Source of the DNA: Candidatus Gastranaerophilales bacterium
GTDB lineage: Bacteria; Cyanobacteriota; Vampirovibrionia; Gastranaerophilales; Gastranaerophilaceae
DNA: 43,146 bases
Reading direction: 5' to 3'
Assembly: GCA_944322935.1 (NCBI GenBank)
Contig: CALUQO010000022.1
Span: forward strand, 1 to 43,146
Shown here piece after piece: positions 15,204 through 17,797 of the stretch. The notes beneath the pieces are model-generated. The model was given only the letters and a program-made list of their open reading frames with translations. It was not told the origin of the DNA and did not search any database. Within the stretch, counting starts at the first letter, position 1. Every line of letters starts with the position of its first letter. The translations under genes and the position numbers were made by a program.

Positions 15204-15818
15204 ATGAAAAAATTGTTTGCTATATTTATTATATCTTTTCTGCTGTCAAACAGTGCTTTTGCTTTAGATTATTCAAAGTACAATCTGTCTGATATAAATG
15301 CAATCAGAGAAGCAACAAAAGCTTATCAAAATGAATTTAAAGATAAAAAAGGCACAAAAGAAGCAGAAATTGAGTTTTTGAAATTCAGGGATTTTTATTA
15401 TGAAGCTGTAGAAAAACAGGATATAAGAATTAAACTAAAGGAACCGGTAAAACTATATAGAAACTCATATTACTGGCAAGCAAGAAAATATACAAAAGAA
15501 TACGCCGACAAAGGATTAAGAGTGGATTTTAATGGAGAGTTTTATATAACCGAAAATAATAAATACTTATACAAAAATTTCTGTTCTTATTTAAATGCGG
15601 ATTGGTGTGAGTTATTAAAGTTTTTGTCAAAACAAGATACAAAAAGAATCTTTTGGGATTCGGTTTATGTAATATCAAAAGACGAACTTGTAAAAATAAT
15701 AAATTTTTATAAAAACTTTGATAAGAAATACCCTAATTTTGTATTAAATGATTCTATAAAATCTATAATAAAAGATTATGAAAAAGATTTAAAACGTTAC
15801 CCTTATCTAACTGATTAA
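15204..15818 (+). CDS. Secreted hypothetical protein
   Basis: 204 residues, unrecognised. Signal peptide ~1-20 (MKKLFAIFIISFLLSNSAFA). The mature part is Lys/Tyr/Asp-rich and probably mostly helical (IREATKAYQNEFKDKKGTKE, then DSIKSIIKDYEKDLKRYPYL). It has two cysteines in one segment (NFCSYLNADWCELL), possibly a disulfide. No Shine-Dalgarno lies directly before its ATG; the nearest one drives a start-stop codon pair 29 bases upstream. It is followed by an inverted repeat at 15841-15866 and then by the M15-type peptidase. Very A-rich coding, like its downstream neighbour. Confidence 0.7.
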   Translation: MKKLFAIFIISFLLSNSAFALDYSKYNLSDINAIREATKAYQNEFKDKKGTKEAEIEFLKFRDFYYEAVEKQDIRIKLKEPVKLYRNSYYWQARKYTKEYADKGLRVDFNGEFYITENNKYLYKNFCSYLNADWCELLKFLSKQDTKRIFWDSVYVISKDELVKIINFYKNFDKKYPNFVLNDSIKSIIKDYEKDLKRYPYLTD

Positions 15819-15899: not shown

Positions 15900-16829
15900 A
15901 TGACAAATCAAAAAGAAATATGGACACCGGAACAGGTAGAAAAATATTTACAAAGTCTAAAATCAGGTTCAAAACGAAGATTGCCAAATAATGTATATGT
16001 CACAGAAAATTTTACATGGAATGAAGTATTAAGAACTGATGCAAGAAATATAGATATGCCGTCAAGACAAGTGTTGGAAAATTTAAAGACAAGTGCAAAT
16101 GTATTACAGAATTACAGAAACAAAGTTGGTAAAGCAATAACAATAACATCAAGCTGGAGAACACCTACAGAGCAAAAAGCTTTAATAAACGCATATAAGG
16201 AAAAGAAGGCACAAAATAAACCTGTCGGCAGACCTTCAGAAACATCGTTGCACATGGAAGGATTAGCCTTGGATTTTATTGTTGATGGAGTAAAACCATT
16301 ATCAGTGTATGAACATTTTGATAAAACTCTTATGGGAGAGTTAGAAAAAAGTCCTATATATACACATGTAGGATTGCCTACATATTCAGAAAAGTACTTA
16401 AAAAACAACGGTATATTTAGTGAAAAACTTTATAAAAAATTAGATGTCAATGAAATTACACTTACACCTTACGAACAATCAAAAGTTATTAAAAGATTAG
16501 ATGCTTCTAGTTGGAAAACCATTCCTTCAAATTTTAATGCCAAAGCAAATGTACAGGAGTATAAAAACTTTAAAACAAAAATTCAAACTCCTAAAACAAA
16601 TATACCGGTTTCAAACCCTATTAACTCGAAACCTGCTCAAATTACAGCAGACAAAAGAACACCCGCTCAAAAGTTTGATGATGAAATCAGAACAAAATAC
16701 CTACTAATGCAGGAAGAAAGAAAAAGACGATATCCTGTCTTTAGAAAGGGGAGTTCCCCAGCAAAAAGTTCATCAGGTAAAGGCAGGTGGGTAACTATTA
16801 ACGGCAATCATGTATTTATAGAGGATTAA
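15900..16829 (+). CDS. M15-type peptidase (D-Ala-D-Ala carboxypeptidase-like) with phage-type C-terminal motif
   Basis: 309 residues with AAGGAG nine bases upstream of the ATG. Residues ~32-165 match the M15_3-like fold: an FTWNEVLRTDARN lead-in, ITSSWRTPTEQKALINAY (Arg87), then SETSLHMEGLALDFIVD with His118 and Asp125 as zinc ligands; the third ligand is probably His in YTHVGLP. No signal peptide. A Pro/Lys/Ser-rich linker leads to a C-terminal KGRWVTINGNHVFIED, a short WVTINGxHVFI motif that I associate with ends of phage structural and mobile-element proteins. It may cut peptidoglycan stems during phage or conjugative passage. A strong terminator follows. Confidence 0.72.
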   Translation: MTNQKEIWTPEQVEKYLQSLKSGSKRRLPNNVYVTENFTWNEVLRTDARNIDMPSRQVLENLKTSANVLQNYRNKVGKAITITSSWRTPTEQKALINAYKEKKAQNKPVGRPSETSLHMEGLALDFIVDGVKPLSVYEHFDKTLMGELEKSPIYTHVGLPTYSEKYLKNNGIFSEKLYKKLDVNEITLTPYEQSKVIKRLDASSWKTIPSNFNAKANVQEYKNFKTKIQTPKTNIPVSNPINSKPAQITADKRTPAQKFDDEIRTKYLLMQEERKRRYPVFRKGSSPAKSSSGKGRWVTINGNHVFIED

Positions 16830-17026: not shown

Positions 17027-17694
17027 TATCAACATTTATCAAATTGGATTATTCGGGTACGCATAGTCCTTAATTTCACTAAAATTTTGCTGTCGCAAAA
17101 TTGCCGTTCAATCGGACTATATGTTCTTACGAGTTTCGCAACTTCGTTGCTCACTCTACCGAAAATCCAGCAGTCCCTTAAACAGTCCCTTTTGGGACCC
17201 AAGCGGCTATTTCTTATTCAAGTGCAATATGGCCAAAATGCAATAATAAAGCACCGAAAAGGTGCGTTTTTATGGAGTGAGAGCCAAGTAGGGACTTCAT
17301 CTCTACGGCTCATTCTTCGCCTAGAGCTGAGGTCAACGAGGCTGTCTTGCTCGCTCGCAATAAACGGCATTACGTGTCGAAAACTCAACGTTTTCGCCAC
17401 TTCAGCCTCTGCTCGCTCGCGTTCGAACTTCGCGACAAAGCTTCGTTTTGTGCGAGTTCTTAAACCCATTCTAACTATAAAAAAACAGCACCCTATCGGG
17501 TGTTAACTTGAAAATGGAGCGAGAGACGAGGCTCTCTTGGATTTGCTCCACGCTCGGAAAGTTTCGCTTTTGAGCCTTCGGCTCAACTCCGCTCAATTTC
17601 CTCGCTATCCGGACTTGCACTTCGTGCATCGTCCGTCCGCAAATCCGCTCGAACTCTACTTGAGTTCTCGCCTCTGTCTCTCTATATACTAAAA
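17027..17694. other. Hairpin-rich non-coding island beside tRNA-Gly
   Basis: No credible gene on either strand; the open frames here are Arg/Ser/Leu-rich by-products of the repeats. The DNA is more GC-rich than the neighbouring genes and full of short palindromes centred on CTTCG: GCAAC-TTC-GTTGC (17138-17150, flanked by GAGT/ACTC), ACAAAG-CTTCG-TTTTGT (17435-17451), GAGCC-TTC-GGCTC (17572-17584) and TGCAC-TTC-GTGCA (17616-17628, inside CGGAC/GTCCG). GGATTTGC (17539-17546) pairs with GCAAATCC (17639-17646), enclosing the last two as a branched structure. It also holds one extra and one degenerate copy of the tRNA-Gly 3' end. It could be a relic of an integrated element, a structured RNA or a genome repeat. 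Confidence 0.6.
17489..17534 (-). repeat. 46-bp direct repeat, copy 1 (tRNA-Gly 3' end plus terminator)
   Basis: Identical over 46 bp to 17697-17742. It carries the last 20 bases of the tRNA-Gly (TGGAGCGAGAG... on the plus strand) and its terminator stem, but no tRNA body lies beyond it. This resembles an attachment-site duplication. Confidence 0.85.
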
Positions 17695-17712
17695 AACACC
17701 CTATCGGGTGTT
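17695..17712 (-). terminator. Terminator of tRNA-Gly
   Basis: On the minus strand AACACCC-GATA-GGGTGTT followed by TTTT, ten bases after the CCA end of the tRNA. Confidence 0.85.
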
Positions 17713-17742
17713 AACTTGAAAATGGAGCGAGAGACGAGGCTC
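17697..17742 (-). repeat. 46-bp direct repeat, copy 2 (overlaps the intact tRNA-Gly)
   Basis: Second copy of the 17489-17534 repeat, 208 bp away. It covers the 3' end of the functional tRNA and the downstream terminator. Confidence 0.85.
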
Positions 17743-17797
17743 GAACTCGCGACCCCTTCCTTGGCAAGGAAGTGTTCTACCACTGAACTACTCTCGC
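17723..17797 (-). tRNA. tRNA-Gly (GCC), CCA encoded
   Basis: Minus-strand cloverleaf: acceptor GCGAGAG pairs with CTCTCGC. The D-arm contains AGTTCAGTGGTAGAAC, the anticodon arm is TTCCTTGCCAAGGAA with anticodon GCC, and the T-arm carries GTTCGAGCC. The discriminator is T and CCA is encoded. Length with CCA is 75. The gene lies just downstream of cca on the same strand. Confidence 0.96.

Follow-up and report, generated by a model that had tools for sequence, protein, structure and literature searches.

Downstream of an intact tRNA-Gly(GCC) gene of Candidatus Gastranaerophilales lies an island of palindromes that is a cluster of displaced tRNA-Gly 3′ ends. The explanation that we favour, and consider probable, is a displaced tRNA-Gly 3′-end array whose T-loops have been filled by non-autonomous miniature mobile elements, chiefly a 115-bp non-coding repeat termed element B and bounded by GGATTTGC/GCAAATCC. 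Element B is a real, mobile and structure-selected repeat family without a match to any described one; in general kind it belongs with the miniature palindromic elements of bacteria, and its occupation of spare tRNA ends is unusual. B-type elements are most likely selected as a folded single strand, either DNA or RNA, and land in these spare ends. The window referred to below is the whole stretch of DNA that was analysed (43,146 nt), and 'own genome' denotes the draft genome from which it comes.

A sequence-only reading of this DNA had described hairpins with differing arms around a constant CTTCG centre at 17131–17646, two of them enclosed in a branched fold. A sequence check bears out the palindromes, with GCAACTTCGTTGC at 17138–17150, TTGAGCCTTCGGCTCAA at 17570–17586, TGCACTTCGTGCA at 17616–17628 and the variant ACAAAGCTTCGTTTTGT at 17435–17451. 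Perfect C-TTC-G/C-GAA-G hairpins of at least 4 bp occur three times in these 516 bp against 0.04 in dinucleotide shuffles, of which none (0/2000) reaches three, while the remaining 42.6 kb of the window holds one more. The GC content of the region is 48%, compared with 35% for the window. Read on the minus strand, that of tRNA-Gly, the palindrome loops are C-GAA-G, and the branched fold of 17515–17690 on this strand is strong (z = −5.5 as DNA and −5.9 as RNA), no shuffle equalling it. Element B contains two of the palindromes; of the others, one belongs to the arm of the following module and one (17138) tips a B-like fragment.

The earlier reading had overlooked that the last 20 nt of tRNA-Gly, together with the terminator, are duplicated 208 bp apart with 96% identity (17483–17534 and 17691–17742); a second, interrupted copy of the tRNA-Gly end follows further on at 17273–17342 (table 1). 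Between the intact gene and the first displaced end there are an inverted tRNA 3′ end, which forms the outer 12-bp helix and a 6-bp hairpin of the predicted fold, the 5′ half of a T-arm, with TTCGA at its end, and element B, placed directly after this T-loop TTCGA. Several parts recur elsewhere: the small T-arm-like hairpin of the second module is present in other tRNA modules, element C is found after tRNA-Asn, -Asp and -Gln and in the Gly modules of congeners, insert A has the same or a similar form at four loci of relatives, and truncated B copies resembling the one in the window occur at two other loci. Just beyond the array, the window has an open reading frame with a peptidase M15/VanY-like domain (15900–16829) and another whose product is of no known kind (15204–15818); both may be left over from a prophage or island at this tRNA.

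Table 1. Parts of the tRNA-Gly array, in window coordinates.
Feature	Position	Strand	Basis
Intact tRNA-Gly(GCC), from which the duplicated 3′ ends derive	17723–17797	−	ARAGORN; Rfam RF00005, 68.1 bits
Terminator-like hairpin of intact tRNA (CACCC..GGGTG + T run), duplicated at 17483–17514	17691–17722	−	direct repeat, 96% identity
Inverted tRNA 3′ end, GA for TC opposite T-loop GA (GAGAGACaGAGGC-GA-GAACTC)	17662–17683	−	fold
T-arm 5′ side hairpin, GAACTC-AAGTA-GAGTTCGA	17649–17667	−	pattern match
Element B, GCGGATTTGC...GCAAATCCAAGA, branched	17534–17648	−	model R1, 127 bits; covariation; folds
Element B helix P1 (GGATTTGC 17539–17546, GCAAATCC 17639–17646)	17539–17546/17639–17646	−	
Element B helices P2, with TGCAC-GAA-GTGCA, and P3, with TTGAGCC-GAA-GGCTCAA	within 17534–17648	−	
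Displaced tRNA-Gly 3′ half (GAGCCTCGTCTCTCGCTCCA)	17515–17534	−	repeat comparison
Terminator of displaced 3′ half	17483–17514	−	direct repeat
T-arm-like hairpin, second module, ACAAAG/CTTCG/TTTTGT palindrome at tip	17421–17459	−	sequence
Element C (CGCGAGCGAGCAGAGGCTG...GCGAGCGAGCAAGACA), T-loop slot of second module	17343–17422	−	sequence
GCCTCG of second displaced tRNA-Gly 3′ end, interrupted	17337–17342	−	sequence
Insert A (TTGACCTCAGCTCTAGGCGAAGAATGAGCC...CTACTTG) within acceptor half	17285–17336	−	sequence
Rest of second displaced tRNA 3′ end (GCTCTCACTCCA)	17273–17284	−	sequence
Third terminator-like hairpin (GCACC..GGTGC + T run)	17244–17270	−	sequence
Truncated B-like element tip (GAGC-AAC-GAA-GTT-GCGAAACTC)	17131–17156	−	compared with B loops in 43-copy alignment

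Displaced 3′ ends are found at many tRNA genes. Of the own-genome tRNAs, 26 have 200 nt or more of sequence on their downstream side, and in 15 of these the tRNA's own 3′ end recurs there; cross comparisons gave 2 of 628 (0.3%). In many copies an insert lies within the T-loop or close to it: element B at Gly, Leu and Tyr, C at Gly, Asn and Asp (and at Gln, there without a displaced end), D at Gly-CCC, F at Phe, His, Leu-CAA and Glu, and others too. The inverted arm matches each tRNA's own sequence save for GA opposite the T-loop GA, which is seen in 11 of 13 modules (TC in 0/13), so that tandem G-A mismatches replace a perfect palindrome. In the rtT repeats of E. coli tyrT, tandem repeats downstream of a tRNA likewise contain the tRNA 3′ end; rtT concerns one E. 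coli tRNA operon, whereas the present arrays follow more than one tRNA in two and have T-loops interrupted by unrelated mobile inserts. Arrays also lie 5′ of tRNA genes at three loci (L087, C12:30498–30741; L074 on C9; L080 on C15), where copies of the tRNA 5′ half carry an F insert in the D-loop region and three 100-bp tandem units stand beside tRNA-Met. Many tRNA genes are situated a few hundred bases from contig ends (on own-genome contigs C9, C21, C29, C37, C39, C43, C46 and C63), as expected if arrays break the assembly.

The T-loop of tRNA genes is a usual crossover region for integration. In a relative (locus L034), the immediate neighbour of this tRNA-Gly is a gene for a tyrosine integrase; similar sequence occurs at two further loci (L026 and L033), and the tRNA has therefore probably served the clade as an attachment site. 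The proposal of a relic attachment region is supported in part, by the displaced 3′ ends and the relatives' integrase; the array here contains no integrase, and none was seen to act on the elements, the one at L034 being unlinked to B. The own genome has five Phage_integrase matches. Were the array no more than an attachment site in decay, once used by a phage or island that integrates at tRNAs, with the hairpins as integrase arm or core sites, the duplicated tRNA 3′ end and the adjoining integrase would be explained; attachment arms would not be common to contexts as varied as those of B, which occurs at many sites without a tRNA, at a stop codon and in many tRNA contexts, and we give this account very little probability.

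Integron attC arrays offer another comparison, being tandem cassettes that end in an imperfect inverted repeat folding as a single strand, as do the tRNA modules. The inverted copy of the tRNA end goes beyond ordinary integrase attachment sites and counts against the explanation that we favour. A further reading is a tRNA-based, integron-like system in this family of gut bacteria, in which each tRNA gene docks non-coding cassettes. Their imperfect inverted repeat would reproduce the tRNA 3′ end, tandem G-A mismatches marking the T-loop, and one recombinase that reads structure would insert or exchange several unrelated folds (B, C, D, E and F) there. The modules differ from integron cassettes in having no open reading frames and in arms that follow the tRNA sequence, and inspection of their ends by eye revealed no attC GTTRRRY/RYYYAAC boxes. 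Such a system is attractive as a reading of the module layout, and we think it distinctly unlikely.

The distribution of element B was followed with a covariance model (R1) built from eight copies. A search of the own genome places B beside tRNA-Leu(GAG) and tRNA-Tyr and also at sites without a tRNA, and the model finds 18 copies there. Within the family, the model matches 71 of 117 genomes, which represent 27 of 41 genera, and copy numbers range from 0 to at least 30; the named relatives are likewise Candidatus Gastranaerophilales. In a sample of the phylum, 102 of 292 genomes match, and among the matches listed none is outside the same family. B shows both the covariation and the conservation in relatives that the earlier reading had asked about, and the DNA is not decayed coding sequence. 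With the Rfam 15 covariance models, tRNA alone scores above threshold and element B matches no family; other hits are at chance level, the best being to the S10-Clostridia leader at 17235–17311 of the window (+), probably by chance (22 bits, E 0.05, cut-off 35). No report of repeats like B in Gastranaerophilales was found in the open-access literature. In two genomes (G053 and G105), most copies sit between short tandem repeats of 8–9 bp and few at tRNAs, and genomes of one genus (g17) have many intergenic 8–9 bp minisatellites (GTGATTAA, TTAACGTC, ACTAAGGC) with B copies inside. Some copies in G105 lie inside a palindrome, CGTCATTGCGA..GCAATCCAG, similar in appearance to a CGTC repeat, and at four loci (L091 and L138–L140) some split a palindrome, CGTCATTGCGA..GCGAATGCGAAGCAATCCAG, resembling CGTC-tagged REPs.

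That these are palindromic mobile repeats, as the sequence-only reading had proposed among other options, is strongly supported by dispersed copies, presence or absence at orthologous sites, and nesting; comparison among genomes shows that B has been mobile over evolutionary time. The clearest case is tuf (EF-Tu), at its 3′ end. Here B of the own genome begins inside the stop codon (TA|GCG), its first base giving the G of TAG and turning TAA into TAG, and is followed by element E, which here carries an 82-bp relative. This stop codon in 18 congeners is filled in 6 (by B, B+E, E or partial E), empty in 10 and unreadable in 2; elements B and E are inserted inside it at L193–L197 and L203. The chassis of the Gly module, GAACTCAAGTARAGTTCGA, occurs in 5 of 239 genomes, all of the genus of the own genome. 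Three genomes have B in its tRNA-Gly T-loop slot, two have C and one has E; a pattern search found no insert-free Gly module. Nesting runs in both directions, with F inside B at two loci (L020 and L025) and B inside an F element near tRNA-Lys.

Insertion of B is precise, between one A and another (A|GCGG...AAGAC|A): among 67 distinct junctions, an A stands at −1 in 62 and at +1, after AAGAC, in 57. Outside T-loops, a preference for hairpin loops as a general target is not significant (p = 0.09) and is not claimed; A|A is the clear rule. Insertions in T-loops mostly show one extra base relative to the native tRNA, which counts against the favoured explanation because simple insertion without duplication does not predict it. 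Some of the B copies could owe their spread to homologous recombination between the repeats that flank them. In the broad sense B is MITE-like, having multiple dispersed copies and both filled and empty orthologous sites. A DDE-type MITE, with terminal inverted repeats at the very ends on both sides and a target duplication of fixed length, was rejected: B is asymmetric, with GC before its inverted repeat and AAGAC after it, and the duplication is 0–1 nt.

The same reading had suggested selection for structure rather than sequence, and covariation in 43 distinct B copies (alignment A2, 24 consensus pairs) supports this strongly. Across these copies 99.1% of pair cells are paired, double changes occur at 13 of the 24 pairs, and the covariation score is 0.346, compared with 0.149 ± 0.008 for shuffled alignments and at most 0.086 for slid structures. 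The closing helix appears as GGATTTGC/GCAAATCC, GAATTTGC/GCAAATTC and GGATTTCC/GGAAATCC. Columns 56–60/98–102 of helix P3 were unpaired in the search model and still show double changes in all five pairs (5/5), and the covariation is therefore not a product of the model.

The earlier reading had also offered a structured RNA family. On this account B would be a functional RNA, either an sRNA or a cis-acting one, multicopy by chance and transcribed with the tRNA or an upstream gene, and its fold would be selected as RNA. The strong covariation is in its favour, as are the direction of B, which is that of the tRNA in T-loop modules and of tuf, and the excess of G-U over A-C cells on the B strand (11 against 2; binomial p = 0.02, with cells that are not independent). 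The excess points to selection on the B strand in single-stranded form and fits RNA as well as single-stranded DNA; the hairpin loops, mostly GNA or GNRA, also suit an RNA, although their mixture does not decide between RNA and DNA. Outside the tRNA modules, however, B has the same orientation as the upstream gene in 27 cases and the opposite in 17, it tends to the 3′ side of genes as expected of tolerated insertions, it lacks a counterpart in Rfam, and it is optional among congeners, with its widely varying copy number. On balance we regard a functional RNA as unlikely.

No mobilising enzyme gene was identified, and none of the B loci examined held a gene-carrying element with B's ends. The own genome has one RAYT gene (NCBIfam REP_Tyr_transpos; L082 1623–2153 (−), C7:23766–24128), situated in the tRNA-Phe 3′-end array, where the loop of an F hairpin contains it and GTAGGTTGGG repeats of its own flank it; a locus in another genome (L183) looks similar. 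Its presence inside a hairpin element of a tRNA array, and the hairpin nature of both kinds of repeat, would suit REP/REPIN-type repeats mobilised by this RAYT transposase. Yet the RAYT has its own GTAG-type REPs (GTAGGTTGGG..), unlike the ends of B, and several of the genomes richest in B lack Y1_Tnp, so that this origin seems highly improbable. At least seven B-rich draft genomes (G014, G027, G033, G046, G053, G065 and G092) were without Y1_Tnp and four (G000, G005, G072 and G027) without RVT_1, which removed RAYT as mobiliser and reverse transcriptase as a requirement; the own genome, as drafted, is among those that lack a reverse transcriptase. As far as draft completeness allows, the spread of B needs neither a RAYT/IS200 transposase nor a reverse transcriptase.

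BOX/ERIC-type intergenic repeats resemble B in being imperfect palindromes of 100–150 bp whose mobiliser is unknown; their sequence is not known to be related to that of B, and no BOX/ERIC repeat is known to land in the T-loop of a tRNA. REPs are single hairpins of 20–40 bp, GTAG- or CGTC-tagged, with RAYT for the GTAG class (PMC3116915, PMC3733652). Like the REP/REPIN–RAYT system, B comprises short non-coding intergenic palindromes in tens of copies that form hairpins on one strand and are thought to be mobile in trans; unlike REPs, it has a 115-bp branched fold, ends of the GCGG..AAGAC type (GCGR..AAGA in 43 copies) without a GTAG or CGTC tag, and a distribution independent of RAYT. CGTC-tagged REPs and Rickettsia palindromic elements are also palindromic repeats without a dedicated transposase (PMC3733652), but their ends, size and fold are different. 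Mitochondrial double-hairpin elements share with B optional hairpins or palindromes in small AT-rich genomes, some associated with tRNAs (PMC5910586, PMC7218506); they are organellar and consist of two simple hairpins.

The route by which such an array arises may be sketched as follows. Each integration at a tRNA T-loop would supply a tRNA 3′ half and terminator of its own and displace the former end downstream, where inserts would be harmless. Element B, folding on one strand into the branched structure closed by GGATTTGC/GCAAATCC, would be moved in trans by an enzyme acting on this folded strand.

As a rule, the miniature repeats of bacteria are short hairpins for which the transposase is known. 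Element B has a larger branched fold, its covariation is very clear for a mobile repeat, and it spreads without RAYT or reverse transcriptase, which makes it a tractable case for what moves structure-selected repeats. The array system touches more than half of the tRNA genes, the spare tRNA ends serving as landing sites. For annotation, the tRNA fragments of the arrays are open to confusion with tRNA genes or regulatory RNAs, and the arrays may explain why draft genomes of the group break at tRNA genes.
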